Source: Candidatus Uhrbacteria bacterium
GTDB lineage: Bacteria > Patescibacteriota > Patescibacteriia > UBA9934
DNA length: 50,953 nt
Assembly (NCBI GenBank): GCA_943354605.1
Contig: CALRCK010000006.1
Span: 1 to 50,953, forward strand
Direction of reading: 5' to 3'
Part shown: piece by piece, positions 7,606 through 37,161 of the stretch
Numbering within the stretch: position 1 is the stretch's first letter
Layout of the letters: each line of letters opens with the position of its first letter
Translations under genes and position numbers: made by a program
The notes under the pieces: model-generated
Seen by the model: only the letters and a program-made list of their open reading frames with translations
Database searches by the model: none
What the model was told of the DNA's origin: nothing

Positions 7606-8520
7606 ATGCTCACCGCCATCTTCACTATCATCGGTCTCGCGGCCTTCGAGGTCGTCTCCAGTATTGATAATGCCGTCATTAACGCCGAAGTGTTGCAAAC
7701 CATGAGCCCCAAGGGCCGAAAATGGTTCTTGCTCTGGGGCATGCTCTTCGCCGTGTTCATCGTCCGTGGATTGCTCCCATGGCTGATTGTGTGGGGCGTA
7801 GTGCCAAGCCTTGGCCCGGTCGGAGCTCTGCTCTCGACGATGAGCGGCGATCCTCTCGTGCATCTCGCCGTGGAATCCGCAGCGCCAGTCCTCTTTGCCG
7901 GCGGCGGAACATTCTTGCTGTTCCTGTTCTTCCACTGGCTGTTCCTTGAAGAAAAACACTTTGGCCTTCCGCACGAAAAATTCTTTTCGCGCCAAGGCCT
8001 GTGGTTCTACGCCGTAGTCTCCATTCTCCTCGCCGCGATTGTCTGGTTCTCCATCGACATCGCCCCAATGATGGCCTTCGGCGCCGTTGTGGGATCGACC
8101 GCGTTCTTTATTACGCATGGATTCAAAGACAACGCAGAGAAGGCGGAACAAGAACTCCTCTCCGGCAACAAAGATCGCAGCGACATCAGTAAAATTCTCT
8201 ATCTGGAAGCCATCGACACCACATTCTCCATCGACGGCGTCCTCGGCGCCTTCGCCTTCACCCTCTCCGTTCCCCTCATCCTCATCGGCAACGGCATCGG
8301 CGCCCTCGTCGTGCGCCAACTGACGGTGAGCAACGTGGAAACGATTAAGAAGTACATCTACCTGAAGAATGGCGCGATGTACTCGTTGCTGATCCTCGGC
8401 ATGATGATGCTGTTCGAAGCCTTCGGCGTTCACGTGCCACAGTGGGGCGCTCCACTGGCGACGGTACTCATCCTGATTGCGGCGGTGATGAAGTCGAGGA
8501 TGCATTTGAAGGCCATTTAG
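7606..8520 (+). CDS. TerC/DUF475-type integral membrane protein
   Basis: EVVSSIDNAVINAEVL and LEAIDTTFSIDGVLGAFAF acidic TM motifs typical of TerC-like proteins. Confidence 0.85.
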   Translation: MLTAIFTIIGLAAFEVVSSIDNAVINAEVLQTMSPKGRKWFLLWGMLFAVFIVRGLLPWLIVWGVVPSLGPVGALLSTMSGDPLVHLAVESAAPVLFAGGGTFLLFLFFHWLFLEEKHFGLPHEKFFSRQGLWFYAVVSILLAAIVWFSIDIAPMMAFGAVVGSTAFFITHGFKDNAEKAEQELLSGNKDRSDISKILYLEAIDTTFSIDGVLGAFAFTLSVPLILIGNGIGALVVRQLTVSNVETIKKYIYLKNGAMYSLLILGMMMLFEAFGVHVPQWGAPLATVLILIAAVMKSRMHLKAI

Positions 8521-8540
8521 AGGCCCACAAAATCAATACT

Positions 8541-10496
8541 ATGATTGTTCATAAAGTCTCAGTTCAGAATTTTCGGTCTATAGAGAATGAGATTCTGTTC
8601 TGCTCTGAGCTCACCGCATTGGTTGGCAGAAATGGATCGGGAAAGTCTTCATTTTTGCGGGCCCTTGAGTTATTTTATAGTCTTTCGCCAAAAGTCGATT
8701 CTGAAGATTTTTACAACCGAGATATTACACGAGAGATAGTTATTTCGGTTACATATAAAAGCTTAAACGGAGAGGCTCTCTCTTTGTTTGAAAAATACGT
8801 TGAGAATAATGAATTGACGGTCGAAAGAGTTTTTTCTTTGAAAGACGGGAAGTTTAGCTCTTCCTACCATGGCTCTTCTTTGCAGAACGACAAATGTTCA
8901 GAAGTACGGGAGGCCCTTTTATTAACAGATAGTGGGAAAACTGCAAAGGAAAAATACGCGCAACTTAAGGCTGGCCCTGAATTCAGCTCTCTCGTTCACG
9001 CGACAACTAAGGCTGCAATTTCAGAATCTCTAAAAAATTGGGAAAGAGCGAATCCAGCCAAATGTAGTAGGTCGAGAGACGACGGACAATTTTTTGGCTT
9101 CAAATCTGTGGCGAGCGGATATTTGGGTAGGTTTACAAAATTTCTGTTTATTCCCGCGATCAGAGATGCATCACAAGACGCGGCCGATGGGGCGTCATCT
9201 CCCATCGCAGAACTGATGAACTTAGTGGTCCGGAGCGTCCTTGCGGGAAAAACTGAATTGGCGGATTTGAAAAGAACAACGCAAACACAGTTTGGTGAAT
9301 TGATGGATCCATCGAAGTTGAGTGAGCTGAGTGTTTTAGCCGGAGGAATGACGCATACTCTCCAAAGTTTTGTTCCTGACGCTAGTATCGAGATGAGCTG
9401 GCAAAAGCTTCCGGATATAGATTTTCCGCTTCCCAAGGCGGATACAAAATTGAACCAAGATGGCTACGCTTCTTCTGTTGGAAGAGCGGGGCATGGTCTA
9501 CAAAGGGCATTTATCTTAACAGCCTTGCAACATCTTGCTCTAGCGCAGCAGAAAGATGGAGCTGCCGAGGGAGTCTCCTCGGCTGTTCTTCCAGTTCTTA
9601 TTTTAGCGATCGAAGAACCTGAGCTGTACCAACATCCGAATAGCCAGCATCATTTGGCGAGAATTATCCTTGAAATTGCCAAGGGAAAGACTCCGGGTGT
9701 CGCGGAAAAGACTCAAGTTATCTACGGTACTCACTCCCCGTACTTTGTCGGTATTGATCGGATAGATCAGATCAGATTACTGAGAAAACAAAAATCTGTA
9801 GTCGACTCTAACCCAAGGGTTACAAAGGTTATTCAGACTGATTTGGATAGGGTGGCGAGAAAAGTGTGGGAAGTTAATGGGTCGAACGGCCTAGCGTTTA
9901 CGCCTCTTACTTTGTTGCCAAGATTGGCTTCTATAATGACCCCTTCTTTAAATGAAGGTTTCTTCGCCGATGTTGTTGTGTTGGTCGAAGGGGAGGGTGA
10001 TGTTGCTGCGATTTGTGGCGCGTCCGGCGTGCTCGGATACGATTTAGCTAGTATGGGCGTGTCTGTTATAGCGTGTAATGGTAAAAATAGTATTGATCGT
10101 CCGGCTGTAATCTTTTCTGAATTAGGTATCTCCACTTTTATTGTTTGGGATTCGGATAAAGGACAGTCCGATTCGAAGAAGATAGCTCAGTCAGCTAAAG
10201 ATAACCAAACAATGGGGAGACTAGTCGGCGCTGTGCTAGAAGATTTTCCGGCGACTCAGGTTGCTGATAGGTACGCTTGTTTTGAAGTAAAATTAGAAGA
10301 AACATTACGAGAAGAAATTGGTGGTAACTTTGAAAAGTACTTGAAAGAGATTCAGGATAAGTTGGGAATTCCAAAGCGAGATTGGGCTATGAAGATGCCC
10401 ACGGTCTACTCTGAAGTATTGCGGATTGCGAAGGCCAACGGTGAAGGATCTGTGACGCTTGAGACTATTGTGAAGAATATTGTTGCTCTTAAATAA
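8541..10496 (+). CDS. OLD-family ATP-dependent endonuclease (AAA ATPase + TOPRIM)
   Basis: Walker A LVGRNGSGKSS, LAIEEPELYQHP, YGTHSPYFV, TOPRIM-like VVVLVEGEGD...FIVWDSDKG. Confidence 0.88.
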   Translation: MIVHKVSVQNFRSIENEILFCSELTALVGRNGSGKSSFLRALELFYSLSPKVDSEDFYNRDITREIVISVTYKSLNGEALSLFEKYVENNELTVERVFSLKDGKFSSSYHGSSLQNDKCSEVREALLLTDSGKTAKEKYAQLKAGPEFSSLVHATTKAAISESLKNWERANPAKCSRSRDDGQFFGFKSVASGYLGRFTKFLFIPAIRDASQDAADGASSPIAELMNLVVRSVLAGKTELADLKRTTQTQFGELMDPSKLSELSVLAGGMTHTLQSFVPDASIEMSWQKLPDIDFPLPKADTKLNQDGYASSVGRAGHGLQRAFILTALQHLALAQQKDGAAEGVSSAVLPVLILAIEEPELYQHPNSQHHLARIILEIAKGKTPGVAEKTQVIYGTHSPYFVGIDRIDQIRLLRKQKSVVDSNPRVTKVIQTDLDRVARKVWEVNGSNGLAFTPLTLLPRLASIMTPSLNEGFFADVVVLVEGEGDVAAICGASGVLGYDLASMGVSVIACNGKNSIDRPAVIFSELGISTFIVWDSDKGQSDSKKIAQSAKDNQTMGRLVGAVLEDFPATQVADRYACFEVKLEETLREEIGGNFEKYLKEIQDKLGIPKRDWAMKMPTVYSEVLRIAKANGEGSVTLETIVKNIVALK

Positions 10497-10640: not shown

Positions 10641-10668
10641 CATAGGTTGATAATTAAATCAACCTATG
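10641..10668. promoter_or_regulatory. Palindromic operator overlapping promoter and start codon of the HTH-methyltransferase gene
   Basis: CATAGGTTGAT-aattaa-ATCAACCTATG, 11-bp perfect arms; right arm ends on the ATG at 10666; candidate TTGTGG(10626)-N17-GATAAT(10649). Confidence 0.75.
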
Positions 10669-12054
10669 ACTCTAGCACAAGCCATACGAAGCAGGCGCGA
10701 ACGTGTGAATGTAAGTATTAAAAAACTTGCTGCAGAGTTGGATATTGACTACACGCATCTAAGTAAAATAGAGAATGATCACATTCGTCCTTCGCGTGAA
10801 TTACTTGCCCGTTTAGCAGCTTCGCTTGAGGCTGATTTGGATGAGTGGCTTATTCTTGCAGGCTTCCTTCCCGCCGATGTTGCCAGGATTGCATCCTCTA
10901 ATCCTTCTGCTTTTGTGAAATATTTGCGTAAATCAAAACTGCCTTCGACTGAGTCGCGTTCAGATAAAAAGAGGAAGCCGAAATTACCAGTTATCAGTCT
11001 TTTTACTGGTGCTGGTGGTATGGATCTTGGCTTGGAGGAGGCGGGTTTCGAGACGGTAATCTCCATCGAGTTCAACCCTGTTTTCAGAGAGACAATTCGC
11101 CTGAATAGGCCGTCTTGGGATCCTGTCGACGAGTTTAATGGTGATGTAACAAAGATATCGTCGGATTACATCTTAAAAAGATCTGGACTGCGAAAGGGTG
11201 AGGCGGCGTTAGTTGTGGGCGGCGCCCCTTGTCAGCCTTTTAGTAATTTAGGAATGAAGAAGGGCACGAAGGATGCCAGAGGAAATCTGTTTCGAGATTT
11301 TATTAGGATAGTTCGAGACACGCACCCGTGTGGTTTTATTTTTGAAAATGTCGAGGGCTTGACTCAGCAAAAACATCAGGCGGTCACCGAAACTTTGAAT
11401 GACGCTTTTAAGGACATTGGATACTCAGTGCAGTCTAAGATACTCGTTGCTGCAGATTATGGTGTTCCTCAAAAGCGAAGGCGCTTGTTTGTAATAGGCT
11501 GTAGGTCTGGTGTGACCCCCGAGTTTATGGAGTCGACTCATTCTCCAAATGGTGACTCTGGAAAAAAGAAGTGGATTTCGGTCAGACAGGCATTCGCGGC
11601 CATTCCCAAGAGCCGTTTCAAAGGGTCGGATTGTTATTCGATGAATCATTCGGACGAAATGGTAAAGAGAATTTCTTATGTTTCGCCGGGCGGTAATTAT
11701 AAGGATTTGCCAGTAGAACTCTTGCCCAATTGCTGGAAGTCCGGAAAATACCAAGGTCAAGATACTTTTGGAAGACTGAGATGGGATCATCCGTCAGTCA
11801 CCATTCGAACTTGCGCATATAATCCAACAAAAGGCAGATATATTCACCCTCGAGAGAACCGAGGGTTGAATACAATTGAAATGGCGGCGCTTCAAAGTTT
11901 CCCTCACGATTATCAATTCGTTGGCGCCATGAAGTCCATAGGGGAACAGATAGGCAATGCCGTCCCGCCGCTACTCGCACGAGCCGTCGGGCTTTCGATG
12001 AGAAAAGCTATCGCTGTACTTCGCAGAAAGGAAGCAAGAATCAAGAAGAAGTAG
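10666..12054 (+). CDS. C5-cytosine DNA methyltransferase with N-terminal XRE-type HTH domain
   Basis: HTH IKKLAAELDIDYTHLSKIENDHIRPS; MTase motifs SLFTGAGGMDLGLEEAGF, GGAPCQPFSNLG, FENVEGL, IGNAVPPLLA. Confidence 0.95.
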   Translation: MTLAQAIRSRRERVNVSIKKLAAELDIDYTHLSKIENDHIRPSRELLARLAASLEADLDEWLILAGFLPADVARIASSNPSAFVKYLRKSKLPSTESRSDKKRKPKLPVISLFTGAGGMDLGLEEAGFETVISIEFNPVFRETIRLNRPSWDPVDEFNGDVTKISSDYILKRSGLRKGEAALVVGGAPCQPFSNLGMKKGTKDARGNLFRDFIRIVRDTHPCGFIFENVEGLTQQKHQAVTETLNDAFKDIGYSVQSKILVAADYGVPQKRRRLFVIGCRSGVTPEFMESTHSPNGDSGKKKWISVRQAFAAIPKSRFKGSDCYSMNHSDEMVKRISYVSPGGNYKDLPVELLPNCWKSGKYQGQDTFGRLRWDHPSVTIRTCAYNPTKGRYIHPRENRGLNTIEMAALQSFPHDYQFVGAMKSIGEQIGNAVPPLLARAVGLSMRKAIAVLRRKEARIKKK

Positions 12055-28475: not shown

Positions 28476-29153
28476 ATGCTCACACCCGCTCAAGAAAAAT
28501 TATTGCAGCAGCTCACAACCAAGCGAGGCAGACGCGAGGCGGAGATGTTCGTGATTGAAGGCGAGAAGTTTGTTCGCGATGCTGGTGGACTGGTGGAGTT
28601 CACGTTTACGCCTGCCGACACTGTGCGGTTCGCGGAATATGTTTCCACAGAAACACCGCAAGCGTTCGCTGCAGTCGCGCGCATTCCGAAAGTCACCATG
28701 AAGCGTTTCGCGGAATCGCCGACGATTGTTGTGCTCGACGGCGTGCAAGATCCAGGAAATGTTGGAACCATTTTGCGTGCGGCACTCGGGTTTGGCGCGA
28801 GTGTGTTGTTGGTGGAATCTGCGGAGGTGACGAATCCAAAAGTGGTTCGCGCGTCGGCAAGCGCGATTTTGCGAACGCCGTGGATGACCGTGGCGCGAGA
28901 AGATGCTGGGGCAATTATCGCATCGTTTCATCGGCCGGTGTATCGGCTCGAACTGCGCGACGGCGCGGTGTTGCCGAACGAAATTCGCGCTGAGCCGTGT
29001 GTGGTGGTTGCGGGCAGTGAAGGGAAGGGTATTACGCTTCCTATCGCAGGGACATCTGTCGCAATCCCGCATAATCCTGCACTTGAATCGCTGAACGTTG
29101 GCGTTGCGACATCAATTCTTTTGTATGAACGCTCCAGACAGCTCGCCGTTTAG
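28476..29153 (+). CDS. TrmH/SpoU-family RNA 2'-O-methyltransferase
   Basis: VLDGVQDPGNVGTILRAALGFGAS, VVVAGSEGKGI, VAIPHNPALESLNVGVATSILLYE. Confidence 0.93.
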   Translation: MLTPAQEKLLQQLTTKRGRREAEMFVIEGEKFVRDAGGLVEFTFTPADTVRFAEYVSTETPQAFAAVARIPKVTMKRFAESPTIVVLDGVQDPGNVGTILRAALGFGASVLLVESAEVTNPKVVRASASAILRTPWMTVAREDAGAIIASFHRPVYRLELRDGAVLPNEIRAEPCVVVAGSEGKGITLPIAGTSVAIPHNPALESLNVGVATSILLYERSRQLAV

Positions 29154-30300
29154 CGTTCTTCAGCAGCACGGTGCGGCGCGGCGGGGAACGCTGCGCACCA
29201 TGCACGGCGTTGTGCAAACGCCGGTGTTTATGCCTATTGCGACGGCTGGCGCGCTGAAAACGCTGCTGCCAAGCGAAGTGGCGAATCTTGGTGCGTCGAT
29301 TATTCTGGGAAACACGTATCATCTTTTGCTCCGTCCGGGCGAGGAGGAGCTGAAGAAATTCGGCGGCGTTCGTCCATTTATGCATTGGGACGGCCCGTTG
29401 TTGACGGATAGCGGCGGATACCAAGTGTTTAGTTTGTCGAAGCTGAACACAACCGACGACGATGGCGTAACATTTCAATCGCACATTGATGGCAGCACAC
29501 ATCGGCTGACAGCAGAGCGCTCGATGGAAATTCAAGACGCGATCGGCTCTTCAATTCGCATGCAGTTCGACGATGTTGCGGCGGGGAACTCCATTCGCGA
29601 TCGCTACACTGTGGCGATGGAGCGATCGTTGCGTTGGGCTGCGCGATCAAAGAAACGATTTGATGAATTCGTCGTCAATCCCGCGAGTCGCCCCTTACTC
29701 TTCGGCATTGTTCAAGGTGGTACGCACCAAGATCTTCGTGCGCGATCGCTTCAGGGCCTCGTCAATATCGGCTTTGACGGGTACGCGATTGGCGGGCTTT
29801 CTGTTGGTGAATCGCGTGAGGATGCGTTTCGTATTGTTCGATCGCTCGCAAAAGACATGCCGGCTGATTGTCCGCGGTATTTTATGGGTGGGGGAATGCC
29901 GGAAGAAATTGTCGCGTACGTGTCGTTTGGCGTAGACATGTTCGATTGTGTATTGCCAACGCGCAACGCTCGGCATGGATCGTTGTTTGTGTGGAAGGGG
30001 AATCCAGCAGACGCGGTTCGTGAAGCGTTTGCCCGGGCGATGGATGGCGCTGCAGACTTTCGTATTGCCGAGGCACTGTACGAAAAGATCCAAATTACGA
30101 ATGAGCGCTTTACTGCGGACGACGCCCTCATCGACGCGTGGAACGACGCAGAAACGTCGAAAACGTTTTCTCGAGCGTATTTACGGCATCTTTTCAAAAC
30201 CGGCGAAACACTGGGGCTGCGGCTTGCAACCCTGCAAAATCTGGGCTTTTATCTGCGAATGATGGAGGAATTGCGTTTGATCACAGCGAATCCCTTGTGA
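29125..30300 (+). CDS. tgt: tRNA-guanine transglycosylase
   Basis: TPVFMPIATAGALKTL, GNTYHLLLRPG, DSGGYQVFSLSKL, GIVQGGTHQDLR, GGLSVGE, FDCVLPTRNARHG. Confidence 0.96.
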   Translation: MNAPDSSPFSVLQQHGAARRGTLRTMHGVVQTPVFMPIATAGALKTLLPSEVANLGASIILGNTYHLLLRPGEEELKKFGGVRPFMHWDGPLLTDSGGYQVFSLSKLNTTDDDGVTFQSHIDGSTHRLTAERSMEIQDAIGSSIRMQFDDVAAGNSIRDRYTVAMERSLRWAARSKKRFDEFVVNPASRPLLFGIVQGGTHQDLRARSLQGLVNIGFDGYAIGGLSVGESREDAFRIVRSLAKDMPADCPRYFMGGGMPEEIVAYVSFGVDMFDCVLPTRNARHGSLFVWKGNPADAVREAFARAMDGAADFRIAEALYEKIQITNERFTADDALIDAWNDAETSKTFSRAYLRHLFKTGETLGLRLATLQNLGFYLRMMEELRLITANPL

Positions 30301-30332: not shown

Positions 30333-32330
30333 ATGAATCGTACTGCGATTGGTGCGTTTTTCCTTGTGGTGTTCGCTGTCGGCGCCGGCATCCTCTCGTT
30401 TCCAAAAGAATGGAACGGTGCAATGGCTGCAATGAAGGACAAGGTGGGTTTTCACCTTCCGTATGTTCCAGAACATGACTTTACTCTGGGCTTGGACCTG
30501 AAAGGCGGCGCGCATTTGGTGTACGAAGCTGACATGTCGTCCATCGACGAATCCGAGCGCACCACCGCACTTGAAGGCGTTCGCGATGTGGTGGAGCGTC
30601 GTGTGAACGCATTCGGCGTTGCGGAGCCAATCGTCCAAACAAATATCGCCGATGGTCATTATCGTGTGTTGGTGGATCTTCCTGGCGTGACTGATGTGAA
30701 GGACGCTATTGCGCAAATTGGTGAAACGCCGGTGTTGGCGTTCCGCACGCCAATCACGGACGTGAGCACCACACCAACTGCTGAACAACAGCAGCAAATT
30801 GACGATGCACAGAAAGCCGAACGTGCGAATGCGCTTGACGTGATGAATAAGGCGCTTGCTGGCGACGATTTTGCCGCGCTTGCAAAACAATATTCCATCG
30901 ATTCCGCAACAAAGGACAACGGCGGATACGCTGGATTCATTGCTGCAGACGACAAGGAATACGACGGTCTCGTGACACAGCTCGAAAAGGACCGCACGAA
31001 GATTGGTGTCGTCAACGGTTTGTACGAAGGGACGAGCAAGATGCATATCGTGAAGTACATCAGCAAGAAGACGGAATCTGAACCACGTATTTCGCACATT
31101 CTTATCTGTTACGCTGGTGCATCGGGTTGCACCCAGTCGCGAACAAAGGAAGAGGCGCTCGCGCTTGCAACGCAATTACAACAGGAAGCAACAACGAAGA
31201 ACTTTGCCGACCTCGTAAAAACCAACTCCGACGACTCGGGAAGTAAGGATGCTGGTGGCGACGTAGGGTATGTTGCGCGCGGCCAAATGGTACAGCCGTT
31301 TGAAGATGCGGCGTACGCGCTTCACGACACGCGGATTTCGGAAGTCGTGGAATCGGAATTCGGATACCACATTCTCTATCGCGTTGGTTCTCGTCCATCG
31401 CGCAGCTACGAAATTGCACAAATTGAGATGCCTTGGACGACAGCGTCCGATGTTCTTACCGTTGATCCATGGAAGAACACCGAGCTTTCAGGAAAGGACG
31501 TGAAACATGCATCGGTCGCATTCAACCAGAACAGCGGCGCACCGTACATCGTTTTGGACTTCAACGAAAATGGCACCAAGCTTTTCGGTGAACTGACGAA
31601 GGATAACGTTGGCAAAGTGATTGGCATCTTCCTTGATGGCCAACCAATCACCACACCAGTCGTTCAGGAACCGATCTACGGTGGCCAGGCGTCTATCACT
31701 GGAAGTTTCACGATTGCTGAGGCAAAGCTGCTTGCTCAGCGTTTGAATGCCGGTGCATTGCCAGTGCCAATCACCGTCATCAGTCAACAGACGATTGGCC
31801 CTGCGCTCGGATCTGCGTCGCTCGATCTCAGTGTGAAGGCAGGATTGATCGGATTCTTGCTTGTGGCACTCTTCATGATTGCGTATTACCGCCTTCCTGG
31901 TGTGGTCGCCGTTGGTGCGCTTGCGGTGTATGCATTGGTGAACTTGGCGCTCTTCAAAATTCTTGGTGTGACCATTACCTTGTCTGGAATTGCTGGATTC
32001 ATCTTCTCCCTTGGCATTGCAGTGGACGCCAACGTGCTCATTTTCGAGCGCTTGAAAGAAGAGCTTCGCAACGGTCGCGATCTTCCAACCGCAATGGAGG
32101 AAGCATTCCGCCGTGCATGGCCTTCCATTCGCGACGGTAACGCAACAACGCTTATCGCCACCGGAATTCTGTATACCATGACTTCCGGTTCAGTTCGTGG
32201 ATTCGCACTCACCTTGGCGCTTGGTGTGTTTGTGTCGTTGTTCTGCGCGTTCGTGGTGTCGCGATTTGTGCTCCGCCGTCTTGCACGCATGCCAAAGTTG
32301 CGAAAGTCGTTCTTCTTCCTTGGCCTCTAA
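30333..32330 (+). CDS. secD: Protein translocase subunit SecD with inserted parvulin-type PPIase region
   Basis: LGLDLKGGAHLVYE, VVERRVNAFGVAEP, RISHILICYAG...GGDVGYVARGQMVQPFEDAAYAL...ESEFGYHILYRV (parvulin), LGIAVDANVLIFERLKEELRNG. Confidence 0.95.
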   Translation: MNRTAIGAFFLVVFAVGAGILSFPKEWNGAMAAMKDKVGFHLPYVPEHDFTLGLDLKGGAHLVYEADMSSIDESERTTALEGVRDVVERRVNAFGVAEPIVQTNIADGHYRVLVDLPGVTDVKDAIAQIGETPVLAFRTPITDVSTTPTAEQQQQIDDAQKAERANALDVMNKALAGDDFAALAKQYSIDSATKDNGGYAGFIAADDKEYDGLVTQLEKDRTKIGVVNGLYEGTSKMHIVKYISKKTESEPRISHILICYAGASGCTQSRTKEEALALATQLQQEATTKNFADLVKTNSDDSGSKDAGGDVGYVARGQMVQPFEDAAYALHDTRISEVVESEFGYHILYRVGSRPSRSYEIAQIEMPWTTASDVLTVDPWKNTELSGKDVKHASVAFNQNSGAPYIVLDFNENGTKLFGELTKDNVGKVIGIFLDGQPITTPVVQEPIYGGQASITGSFTIAEAKLLAQRLNAGALPVPITVISQQTIGPALGSASLDLSVKAGLIGFLLVALFMIAYYRLPGVVAVGALAVYALVNLALFKILGVTITLSGIAGFIFSLGIAVDANVLIFERLKEELRNGRDLPTAMEEAFRRAWPSIRDGNATTLIATGILYTMTSGSVRGFALTLALGVFVSLFCAFVVSRFVLRRLARMPKLRKSFFFLGL

Positions 32331-32334
32331 TCTT

Positions 32335-33237
32335 ATGAAACTCTCCTTCAACGTTATTGGACATTCAAAGCTCTGGCTGACGATTTCCGGGGCAATCATC
32401 GTTGCAGCATGCGTTGCGCTGTTTACGTACGGATTGAACTTCGGTATCGACTTTACCGGTGGAAGCTTGCTTCAGGTGAGCGCGCCAAGTTCGTCGGTTG
32501 AATCGTTGCGCAATGCGGTGACGACCGCTGGGTTTGAGCCTGTCGTTCAGCAGGGCGAGGGCGATGCGTACTTTGTTCGCCTTGCGCCGGTGACTGAAGA
32601 ACAACACCAGACCATTCTCACCGCAGTGAAATCGGTTTCGCCTGATGCAACGGAAATCCGTTTCGACACTGTTGGTCCGGTGATTGGCGACGAACTTGAG
32701 AACGCGTCGCTGAAAGCAACGACGCTCATGCTTCTTCTCATTACGCTTTACGTGGCGTGGGCATTCCGCAAAGTCACCCGCCCTGTTGCATCGTGGAAAT
32801 ACGGTGTGGTCACGATGATTGCGGCCTTTCACGACGTGATTATTCCGCTTGGCGTGTTCGCCGTGCTTGGCCATTACCTCGGATACCAGGTGGATATGGC
32901 ATTCGTTGCCGCAGTGCTGACGATTCTTGGATACTCTATTAACGACACCATTGTGGTTCTTGACCGAACCCGTGAGAATCTTATCCGTCATCGTCATGGC
33001 GATGCATCGTTTGGCGACATTGTGAACAAGAGCGTTTTGGAAACCATCGCGCGTTCGTTGAACACCACGTTCGCAACATTGCTCCCACTTCTCGCCGTGT
33101 TCGTCGTTGGTGGTTCCACCACGCGTCCATTCGTGCTTGCGCTCATCATCGGTATGCTTTCTGGAGCGTATTCGTCCATTTTCGTTGCCAGCCCGTTGCT
33201 CGTTGAATGGGAAAAGTGGCGCGCGCATCGTACATAA
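32335..33237 (+). CDS. secF: Protein translocase subunit SecF
   Basis: LNFGIDFTGGSLLQV, LGYSINDTIVVLDRTRENL, LNTTFATLLPLLAVFVVGGSTTRPFVLALIIGMLSGAYSSIFVASPLL. Confidence 0.96.
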   Translation: MKLSFNVIGHSKLWLTISGAIIVAACVALFTYGLNFGIDFTGGSLLQVSAPSSSVESLRNAVTTAGFEPVVQQGEGDAYFVRLAPVTEEQHQTILTAVKSVSPDATEIRFDTVGPVIGDELENASLKATTLMLLLITLYVAWAFRKVTRPVASWKYGVVTMIAAFHDVIIPLGVFAVLGHYLGYQVDMAFVAAVLTILGYSINDTIVVLDRTRENLIRHRHGDASFGDIVNKSVLETIARSLNTTFATLLPLLAVFVVGGSTTRPFVLALIIGMLSGAYSSIFVASPLLVEWEKWRAHRT

Positions 33238-33681: not shown

Positions 33682-35172
33682 ATGATTGGCATTGCAATCC
33701 ACCTCCCGAATGTCGTTGTTCACTACCTAAAGGTCACGCCGTTTCCGCTCATGATGACGCAAGCATTGCTTCTCGTCGGATGGGTGCCGATTCTTGGGGT
33801 GATTATTTGGGGTTTAACACACATTTGGCTCGATTATAAGCAAGGAATCTATAGTAAGGGCTTGAAATGGGTGCTTCTTGAGGTGAATGTTCCTCAGGAT
33901 GCGATCAACACCCCGAAGGGCATGGAGAACTTTTTCATGAACCTTTCTGGCGTGAAGTCTGGCATTACCTGGCGAGAAATTTGGTTGGTTGGAAAAGAAC
34001 AGGCGTCGTTTAGCTTTGAAATAGTGAGCAACGAGGGGAAGATTCAGTTTTTGATTCGTACGATCGATAAGTACCGCGATCTTGTTGAAGCCGCACTCTA
34101 CGCGCAGTACCCAGAGGCTCAGTTTACCGAAGTTCCTGACTACGTGACGCAAATTCCGAAGGAGTATCCAAACAACGAGTACGACGTATTTGGTGGCGAA
34201 TTGGCGTTGTCGAACAAATCATATTTCCCAATCCGTACGTTTGAGGATTTTGAGCACCAGGGTGAGAAAGACTTCCGTTTTAAGGATCCATTGCTTCCAA
34301 TTATCGAAATGATGGGAAAGATGCGCGAAAAGGAGCATTATTGGATTCAGTTTATTATCCGTCCGCCGGATGACCAGCATTGGACGAAAGAGGGAATCGC
34401 ATACTTGAATAAGATGATGGGGAAGGAGGAGAAACACAAACCAGGATTCATGGATTCGTTGTCGGAAAACGCGCTATGGCTTCCAAAGGGCATTGCATCT
34501 CAGCTGATTGGCTTCGGCGGTGCTGCGGACGGGCATAAGGAAGAAAAGAAGGACGACTTCCGCATGTTCCGTATGACTCCACAGGAGCGATTGATGCTCG
34601 ATGCGGTTGCAGAAAAAATCTCCAAAGTTGGATGGAAGACGAAAATTCGCTTCTTGTACGCGGGTCCAAAAACGGCATTTCGCAAAGGCTTGATGGCAAG
34701 CTCGATGAAAGGTATGTGGGCGGTATTTACCAATCAGAATTTGAATGGTCTCAGCTTGCATGGCCCCGCGGTGCCAAAGGACGACTACTTCTGGCAAGCG
34801 TGGCAGATGCCACAGAAGCAGAAAAATCTCGTTTCTCGGTATCAGCGACGCAGCGGCGGTGAAGGAGGAAGCTGGCAGATGCTGAACACGGTTGAGCTTG
34901 CGACCTTATTCCACTTCCCAGCGGCAGATGCACGTACGCCTGTGCTTTCGACGACTGGGGCGCGCCGCGCTGAAGCGCCGAGTGCGTTGCAGGTGGCAAT
35001 GCATAACGAGCCTCAGCTCCAGAACTGGAAGCTGCAAAATGCCGACGCCAAAGAGGAAGAACGTGTGCAGAGCCTTCCCGTTGCGCCACTGAGCGTGCCA
35101 ACTCCAGCTTCGCCAACAGAACACGTATTGCTGCACGAGCCGGACGACGTTCCGCCGAATCTCCCGATGTAA
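33682..35172 (+). CDS. Hypothetical membrane protein paired with the downstream T4SS-like ATPase
   Basis: 496 aa; N-terminal TM segment; adjacent to and same strand as the TraD/VirD4-like gene. Confidence 0.75.
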   Translation: MIGIAIHLPNVVVHYLKVTPFPLMMTQALLLVGWVPILGVIIWGLTHIWLDYKQGIYSKGLKWVLLEVNVPQDAINTPKGMENFFMNLSGVKSGITWREIWLVGKEQASFSFEIVSNEGKIQFLIRTIDKYRDLVEAALYAQYPEAQFTEVPDYVTQIPKEYPNNEYDVFGGELALSNKSYFPIRTFEDFEHQGEKDFRFKDPLLPIIEMMGKMREKEHYWIQFIIRPPDDQHWTKEGIAYLNKMMGKEEKHKPGFMDSLSENALWLPKGIASQLIGFGGAADGHKEEKKDDFRMFRMTPQERLMLDAVAEKISKVGWKTKIRFLYAGPKTAFRKGLMASSMKGMWAVFTNQNLNGLSLHGPAVPKDDYFWQAWQMPQKQKNLVSRYQRRSGGEGGSWQMLNTVELATLFHFPAADARTPVLSTTGARRAEAPSALQVAMHNEPQLQNWKLQNADAKEEERVQSLPVAPLSVPTPASPTEHVLLHEPDDVPPNLPM

Positions 35173-35178
35173 TTCGTT

Positions 35179-37161
35179 ATGCGATACGAACACGACCACG
35201 AGAAGGACATTGTCTACTTTGGCCAAACCAATTTCCGCAATCAAATGCGGAGGTTTGGCATTAAAACCGACGACCGTCGTCGCCACATGTACATGGTGGG
35301 AAAGACGGGTATGGGAAAGACGACGCTTCTCGAAAACATGATTCTTGCGGATATTTATGCAGGTCATGGGTGTGCGTACATCGACCCACACGGAGACACG
35401 GTGTCCAAAATTTTGGATTACATCCCATCGTGGCGTATTAACGACGTGGTGTACTTCAATCCAGCAGACGGCGATTTTCCTATCGCGTTCAACATGCTGG
35501 AGAAAACGGAAGGCTGGGAAAACGTGAAGGACTACAACGCGAAAGTGATGTACAGCCTGCTGTCGATTTTCAAAAAAGTGTGGGAGAACGTGTGGAGCGC
35601 CCGCATGGAATATATTCTGCAGTACACCATTCTGGCGTTGCTTGATACTCCGGGCACCACATTGCTTGGTATTAATCGAATGCTCTCGGACAAGGAATAT
35701 CGCACGGAAATCGTCCAGAACGTGAAGGATCCAATGGTTCAGGCCTTTTGGTTAAAGGAATTTGCGCAGTACGACGTGAAGTTCGCGGCAGAGGCTTCTG
35801 CGCCAATTCAAAATAAGGTTGGTCAATTTCTTGCGTCGACCATGATGCGAAATATCGTCGCGCAATCAAAATCGTCGTTCAATTTCCGGGAGGTGATGGA
35901 CGGGCAAAAAATCTTGCTCGTGAACTTATCGAAAGGTCAGATTGGTGAAGACGCCATGCGCATTCTTGGCGGTATGTTGATTACGAAAATCTACATGTCG
36001 GCCATGGAGCGCGTGAACATTCGCGACGAAAATGAACGACAAGATTTTTACTTGTACGTGGACGAATTCCAGAACTTTGCCACTGAATCGTTCGCGGATA
36101 TTCTTTCCGAGGCTCGTAAATATCGGTTGAATCTCATTATCGCTCATCAGTACATTGCGCAGCTCGATAGCATGACATCGACGGCAGTTCGCGATGCAGT
36201 GTTCGGTAACGTTGGAAGTTTGATCACGTTTCGTATTGGTGCAAAAGACGCGGAGTTCATGGAAAGCGAATTCATGCCGCGGTTTACACCGGAAGACCTC
36301 ATCAACCTTCCAAAATATGGCATTTATCTGAAGCTCATGATTGACGGCGTGAGTAGCCAACCGTTTTCCGCAACAACGCTTCCACCAATCGCGCAACGAA
36401 CCGGAAGCGAAGAAAAGGTTATCGAACAATCGCGTGAGCGTTTCGGTGGGAACCGAAAGATGATCGAGGAGCACGTGATGACCTGGAGTGGTTTTGATCC
36501 AAACATTGATGTTGGTGAGGCACTGGCAAAAGTTGCTGCGGAAAAGAAGGAAGCAAAGAAGGCGCGTTTTGCACACGAATACACCTGTGCACGCTGCGGA
36601 AAGCTCTTCACGTTGCCGGTGGAGCTTGATCGGAGTCGCCCAATTTATTGCGACGATTGCCATGCGCTCATGGTAGAGGAGCGAAAGAAAAAAGGTTCAT
36701 CGAAGCCACCACAAGGAAAGCAGTATCCGCCTGAGCCGCCGAAGATATCGGCGAGCGAAATGGTGGTTACTCCAACGCCCGGCGCAACATCGCTCGAATC
36801 CTTGCCGCCACGACCAGATGCTCCAGTTGTTCATCACGCCGAGCTCAAAAACACACCAGACGATGGGCATACGCATAAACTTATTCCTGTTGCTCCTCCC
36901 GCGCCCCGACCGCGGCCTGCGCCATTAGCTCCTCGACCGGTTGCTTCGGCGCCGTCATCACCGATCGCGCCTGTTGCAGAAGGCCAGCCGGCAAAGAAAA
37001 AGCGTCGTCGGAAGAAGAAGTCGTCTGGACTTGGGTCGTCGATCCCGCCGATTCCAGCGGTCGCCGCAAAGCCCGCAAAAGACCCTGTCGCTGCGGCAAT
37101 GTCTGCGGGGCCTGTTCCAACGCCAGTCGCGCCAGGCGAACGCATCAGTTTCGATTCCTAA
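35179..37161 (+). CDS. TraD/VirD4-like type IV secretion ATPase with C-terminal zinc ribbon and Pro/Ala/Lys-rich tail
   Basis: MYMVGKTGMGKTTLLENMI, CAYIDPHGDTVSKIL, FYLYVDEFQNFATESFADILSEARKYRLNLIIAHQY; CARCGKLFTLPVELDRSRPIYCDDC. Confidence 0.88.
   Translation: MRYEHDHEKDIVYFGQTNFRNQMRRFGIKTDDRRRHMYMVGKTGMGKTTLLENMILADIYAGHGCAYIDPHGDTVSKILDYIPSWRINDVVYFNPADGDFPIAFNMLEKTEGWENVKDYNAKVMYSLLSIFKKVWENVWSARMEYILQYTILALLDTPGTTLLGINRMLSDKEYRTEIVQNVKDPMVQAFWLKEFAQYDVKFAAEASAPIQNKVGQFLASTMMRNIVAQSKSSFNFREVMDGQKILLVNLSKGQIGEDAMRILGGMLITKIYMSAMERVNIRDENERQDFYLYVDEFQNFATESFADILSEARKYRLNLIIAHQYIAQLDSMTSTAVRDAVFGNVGSLITFRIGAKDAEFMESEFMPRFTPEDLINLPKYGIYLKLMIDGVSSQPFSATTLPPIAQRTGSEEKVIEQSRERFGGNRKMIEEHVMTWSGFDPNIDVGEALAKVAAEKKEAKKARFAHEYTCARCGKLFTLPVELDRSRPIYCDDCHALMVEERKKKGSSKPPQGKQYPPEPPKISASEMVVTPTPGATSLESLPPRPDAPVVHHAELKNTPDDGHTHKLIPVAPPAPRPRPAPLAPRPVASAPSSPIAPVAEGQPAKKKRRRKKKSSGLGSSIPPIPAVAAKPAKDPVAAAMSAGPVPTPVAPGERISFDS

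Follow-up and report, generated by a model that had tools for sequence, protein, structure and literature searches.

A parvulin-type module, apparently nested and circularly permuted, within the P1 region of SecD in a Candidatus Uhrbacteria bacterium

The only SecD of the Candidatus Uhrbacteria genome analyzed here carries, in the P1 region on the periplasmic side, a parvulin foldase or chaperone module in which a first unit appears to be circularly permuted and a second unit to be nested within it, and which would isomerize or hold the emerging chain, a reading to which we assign a probability of about 0.7. The identity, position, and fold of this module, its permutation in relatives, the conservation of its active site, and its distribution were all computed. 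Both component parts belong to known families, and it is the permuted insertion into SecD that appears to be new. A first-pass annotation of the same DNA had credited SecD with a parvulin module of its own, on the arm that deals with the chain as it emerges, and the location of the insert at the boundary between P1 base and P1 head bears this out.

In the window (the whole stretch of DNA that was analyzed, 50,953 nucleotides in length), secD is a single, intact ORF with a reading frame open throughout, set in the gene order tgt-secD-secF, with the secF start only a few bases past the secD stop. Its features and immediate neighbors are as follows:

29098-30300, + strand: tgt, queuine tRNA-ribosyltransferase, a usual neighbor of secDF
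30333-32330, + strand: secD with parvulin insert, 665 aa, sole SecD of the genome
30474-30752, + strand: first half of the P1 base, residues 48-140, including LGLDLKGG and SecD_1st
30753-31472, + strand: whole insert, about residues 141-380
30780-31061, + strand: parvulin unit 1, degenerate, alpha1 to beta4, residues 150-243, with no first strand at its N-terminal side
31080-31388, + strand: parvulin unit 2, complete, residues 250-352, predicted to be nested within the unit 1 beta4-beta1 hairpin
31095-31097, + strand: His255, catalytic His of unit 2 beta1, in 48/48 relatives
31107-31130, + strand: Cys259 and Cys266, unit 2 beta1-alpha1 loop
31233-31301, + strand: unit 2 active-site Asp301 (D/E in 48/48), Met319 (45/48), and Phe323 (48/48)
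31368-31370, + strand: His346, GYH motif of unit 2 beta4, 48/48
31404-31433 (about), + strand: residues 358-367 (SYEIAQIEMP), the putative displaced first strand of unit 1, with Gln363 at the His position
31473-31766, + strand: SecD P1 head (Pfam), residues 381-478
31770-32288, + strand: SecD transmembrane part, TM2-TM6, with the GIAVDANVL motif and invariant Asp565
32335-33237, + strand: secF, 300 aa, ATG at 32335

The protein scores 364.9 bits against the NCBIfam SecD model TIGR01129, whose equivalog-domain cut-off is 244.4, and its Pfam matches follow the order SecD_1st (82-139), P1 head (381-478), and SecD_SecF_C (480-643). The transmembrane part holds the proton-relay Asp motif VDANVL, with Asp565 invariant in 48 relatives, and the top Foldseek matches of the full-length model are Thermus SecDF structures. 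The 938-kb genome, which is 98.9% complete, has a single SecD copy; a further match of 36.9 bits at 32665-33201 corresponds to secF, not to a second SecD. Elsewhere in the window, a 496-aa protein without a Pfam match and a TraG/VirD4-like coupling ATPase with a zinc-finger-like segment lie downstream of secF (33682-37161) and possibly constitute a DNA-transfer or uptake module, and an OLD-like AAA ATPase/TOPRIM protein (8442-10496) adjoins a C-5 cytosine methyltransferase with an HTH domain (10666-12054), with which it possibly forms a defense pair.

The stretch that separates the opening half of the P1 base from the P1 head, 11-72 residues long in ordinary Patescibacteria SecDs, comprises 240 residues in the SecD of the window. 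Two Rotamase stretches fall between SecD_1st and the P1 head (PF13616, E 1.3e-34; PF00639, E 1.8e-29), and two DNA-level parvulin matches, at 30792-31058 (33.2 bits) and 31095-31382 (78 bits), exceed the parvulin gathering cut-off of 21.7 bits. Folded alone with AlphaFold, the insert reaches a pLDDT of 93.6 and a pTM of 0.77, and its HMM profile matches SurA across both units (E 2e-44); the Pfam scan of the ORF returned no SurA_N match, so the N-terminal core domain of SurA is absent from this SecD. Of the 94 SecDs examined, every one either lacks an insert or has parvulin sequence at this very site and at no other. Pfam, NCBIfam, HMMER, and Foldseek thus agree with the earlier identification of the 665-aa ORF as a SecD with an inserted parvulin region, and the profile searches and structure model that had been suggested as checks returned the Rotamase families and a parvulin fold matching PrsA, Pin1, and SurA. 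The location originally given for the insert, 30820-31400, was right, although the insert extends slightly wider. The proposal of two tandem units stands as regards their number, but the arrangement appears to be nested and circularly permuted rather than simply tandem, and a third parvulin-derived piece, the putative displaced unit 1 strand, had been missed.

Judged from its sequence, unit 2 looks catalytically complete. In Foldseek, its predicted model matches the PPIase domain of PrsA (2jzv, target TM 0.83), Pin1 (about 0.8), and also SurA (1m5y), and its active site, as counted over 48 double-parvulin SecDs, is near-invariant, in keeping with the original description of the first stretch as the more degenerate and of the second as a classic parvulin. 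On the basis of motifs and of what is generally known of Pin1, we take H255, D/E301, M319, F323, and H346 of unit 2 to be equivalent to Pin1 H59, C113, M130, F134, and H157. Cys259 and Cys266 occur together in 40 of the 48 relatives and are both missing from the other 8, never appearing singly, a pattern that points to a likely disulfide between them. In Pin1, the beta1-alpha1 loop sets substrate specificity, and the cysteine clamp in the same loop of unit 2 may shape what this unit binds.

The profile match of unit 1 begins at position 9, and the domain has no beta1 at its N-terminal side; in relatives, this strand follows unit 2. The permutation is plainly visible in single-parvulin SecDs, where an insert of 128-154 residues runs from alpha1 to beta4 (e.g., GFHIIKK), makes a turn, and ends, directly before the P1 head, in a beta1 strand with the catalytic His (YEASHILIKTKS in L106, ARHILIAAKS in L110), so that a His-Ile-Leu strand closes the domain. 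When a beta1 motif built solely from parvulins outside the Patescibacteria was scored along every SecD, the highest score along the entire protein fell on the pre-head tail in 12 of 13 single-parvulin rows (with one gene entered twice), as against 1 of 20 ordinary SecDs. The tail that follows unit 2 in double SecDs can in many cases still be recognized (EYKVSHILIKT in L120, DYKLSHILIKT in L086). The tail of the window, SYEIAQIEMPW, has decayed, as it has in the clade of the window: its beta1 motif ranks 7 within its own protein, and its His is replaced by Gln363, leaving His238 as the one His of unit 1 that corresponds to the catalytic pair.

Because the displaced strand has decayed in the window, the case for permutation there is built on homology and on the predicted model. 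In the model, two strands of near-equal length (236-258 and 344-367) each fuse beta4 from one unit with beta1 from the other, and both persist with high confidence when the insert is folded without P1 (fragment positions 96-118 and 204-227), which implies that the pairing partner of the tail strand lies in the insert itself. Since beta1 of unit 1 comes after unit 2 and before the P1 head, unit 2 would sit inside the beta4-beta1 hairpin of unit 1. A circularly permuted unit 1 with unit 2 nested in its hairpin is hence the simplest reading of the model, the pairing being read from its secondary structure. A whole-parvulin HMM applied to permuted sequences did not discriminate between arrangements, for the linker before alpha1 costs what beta1 gains, and co-loss of the displaced-strand His and the beta4 His of unit 1, considered as evidence of pairing, revealed no significant link (Fisher p 0.25).

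Relatives were found by scanning one genome per species. Nine of them, from independent assemblies (L004-L012), share the architecture at 44-91% identity over the whole protein, and three of these, also Uhrbacteria (L004-L006), carry the same fusion at 87-91%. Within the class of the window, 363 of 381 genomes match a base-insert-head profile at E<=1e-30, and an approximate split by E-value band yields 170 that look double, 156 that have a single unit or else a divergent pair, and 37 whose match covers the head, either alone or together with a degenerate unit. The assembly chimera that the first-pass annotation had raised as an alternative is excluded by the three Uhrbacteria assemblies, and an assembly or annotation artifact of any kind is extremely improbable, given the same fusion in independent assemblies, its presence in most of the sampled genomes of the class, and the uninterrupted reading frame. 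The survey of Patescibacteria that had been suggested also uncovered the trait, in longer versions, elsewhere in the phylum. Of 380 genomes sampled phylum-wide, at least 64 have a parvulin domain inside an ORF of at least 556 aa, and every such ORF that was examined proved to be a SecD. Variants at the same site comprise SecDF-length proteins of approximately 1000-1100 aa with inserts of 247-301 residues, as well as SecDs of approximately 790-930 aa, from other Patescibacteria families, with inserts of some 350 residues or more; the latter (L198:904-3384, L199:1368-3728, L200, and L201) possibly hold three parvulin-derived units. The parvulin insert is an old, class-wide trait and not a local oddity.

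Outside the Patescibacteria, no fusion was found at E<=1e-36 in 448 genomes sampled from the phyla that include G736, G732, and G735 (with loci from Algoriphagus, Romboutsia, and a gammaproteobacterium), other phyla being represented by single genomes; the only three matches in those 448 genomes were parvulin-only proteins. The extra stretch that precedes the head in the SecDF of Bacteroidota gave no parvulin match. On an unrooted tree of the SecD core, presence or absence of the insert changes at least five times, gains and losses being formally indistinguishable. Apparent losses within carrying groups, in L155 (from the order of the window) and in L150 (family f16), indicate that the insert is dispensable in some lineages. 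Three SecDs of families f4 and f16 (L147, L148, and L149) retain only one degenerate, permuted unit and, together with the insert-less L150, from the same family as L149, look like steps of a reductive loss. In another SecD (L202:800-3244, - strand), the P1 head match is broken by a stretch resembling two extra transmembrane segments, possibly a genuine insertion and possibly a misassembly.

The genome encodes one other parvulin-like protein, a membrane-anchored product of 297 aa (L002:1378-2271, - strand) that on inspection appears to have neither catalytic His motif, and also a cyclophilin lipoprotein. The SecD parvulin is hence the only intact parvulin found in this genome, but not its only possible extracytoplasmic isomerase. 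We considered whether the fusion replaces free parvulins and discarded this as a rule, since many genomes with the fusion also have a free one; in five sampled genomes (G085, G230, G248, G298, and G374), the single parvulin match lies inside SecD. Furthermore, two genomes of one genus (G177 and G294) have a second gene, at L162:1232-2668 and L203:1462-2934 (- strand), for a lipoprotein (LTGC or LSGC) that weakly matches P1 base, parvulin, and P1 head and lacks a transmembrane motor. This seems to be a free copy of the periplasmic arm of SecD, and its existence without the motor indicates that P1 and its parvulins can probably work away from it.

A chaperone or foldase acting in cis at the translocon exit is, in our analysis, the likeliest role for the module, because in E. 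coli the parvulin protein PpiD forms an in vivo crosslink with Asp359 in the P1 head of SecD and cooperates with SecDF late in export (PMC7793623). Furthermore, SurA binds the holo-translocon, and a model places both of its parvulin domains on the P1 head (PMC9987972); this head is critical for export, the conformation of P1 telling the known SecDF states apart (PMC9508474). For the SecD of the window, we infer substrate binding, catalysis, and hand-over along the following lines. The SecD polypeptide would run from the base through alpha1 to beta4 of unit 1, then through the complete unit 2, and back through the first strand of unit 1 to the head, so that unit 1 would be held by both P1 base and P1 head. 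The head would catch the emerging chain, as it does in other SecDs, the degenerate unit 1 would serve as a scaffold or binding platform, and unit 2 would bind and isomerize X-Pro bonds, or merely hold the chain as it leaves SecYEG. The module would in this manner supply in cis a function that E. coli obtains in trans from PpiD and SurA at the SecD P1 head. It is conceivable, though speculative and in our estimate unlikely, that the permutation is itself functional, with the base holding alpha1 and the head holding beta1, such that each proton-driven movement of the head exerts a pull on the parvulin fold. If so, substrate binding or isomerization would be gated by the export motor, and the module would be a foldase mechanically coupled to that motor at the exit of the translocon.

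The role of foldase has a serious competitor in that of chaperone or holdase, because in PpiD of E. coli the parvulin domain shows the fold without the catalysis, according to Weininger et al. (2010) as cited in PMC9643414. Under this alternative, the module would bind the chain, or lengthen P1 across an unusual envelope, with no isomerization of prolines, and the degeneracy of unit 1 in most relatives, together with the reduction to a lone degenerate unit in families f4 and f16, is consistent with it. However, both active-site His residues and the Phe of unit 2 are invariant in all 48 double-parvulin relatives, which a spacer would not need, and most single-unit SecDs retain both His motifs; we regard a non-catalytic module as doubtful on these grounds. 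Parvulin domains can also serve as protein-interaction modules, and the modelled docking of SurA P1/P2 on the SecD head (PMC9987972) is compatible with an insert that mainly docks a partner, be it another chaperone, YidC, or an envelope protein, rather than acting on substrates. The conserved catalytic residues speak against such a docking role, which we deem improbable, and the free lipoprotein copies of P1 and parvulins without a motor fit substrate handling better.

The cis chaperone or foldase reading bears on the question of how exported chains are handed over from SecYEG to periplasmic foldases. In E. coli, this hand-over rests on transient contacts of PpiD and SurA with SecDF. In many of the tiny Patescibacteria, a subunit of the general export machine permanently joins activities that E. 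coli keeps in separate, merely touching proteins, and a natural fusion with a parvulin in the moving part of SecD supports those contacts as a real working step. The fusion also offers single-chain constructs of fixed geometry, suited to crystallization or crosslinking, and a naturally permuted parvulin would be of interest to those who study the evolution of folds. The SecD-parvulin trait is common in the Patescibacteria, a large group of bacteria of which hardly any have been cultured, and it is hidden by domain-level annotation because each half is called separately. The open-access literature searched contained no description linking SecD, parvulin, and Patescibacteria, and no report joining parvulin and circular permutation; most subscription papers lie outside that literature, and priority is not certain.

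Compared with known systems, the SecD of the window shares with the SecDF of Thermus thermophilus (3aqp, 5xan, 5yhf) and with E. coli SecD the P1 base, the P1 head, the six-TM RND part with its Asp motif, and the operon with secF, differing from them in the parvulin insert at the base/head boundary. Unit 2 resembles in fold the PrsA PPIase domain (2jzv, 6xd8; target TM 0.83-0.84), but PrsA is a free lipoprotein foldase with the canonical strand order. PpiD, a parvulin tethered to the membrane, touches the SecD P1 head and acts jointly with SecDF (PMC7793623), yet it is a separate, unfused protein with a single TM, whose parvulin domain is inactive as reported in the citing source above. SurA (1m5y), the top profile match over both units, comes closest in layout, with two consecutive parvulin units of which the first is more divergent and the second canonical, and it too binds SecDF in E. 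coli (PMC9987972). SurA is, however, a soluble protein with a separate core domain and with beta1 of its first unit in the normal place, whereas unit 1 of the window is, on the simplest reading, permuted and the entire module is part of SecD itself.
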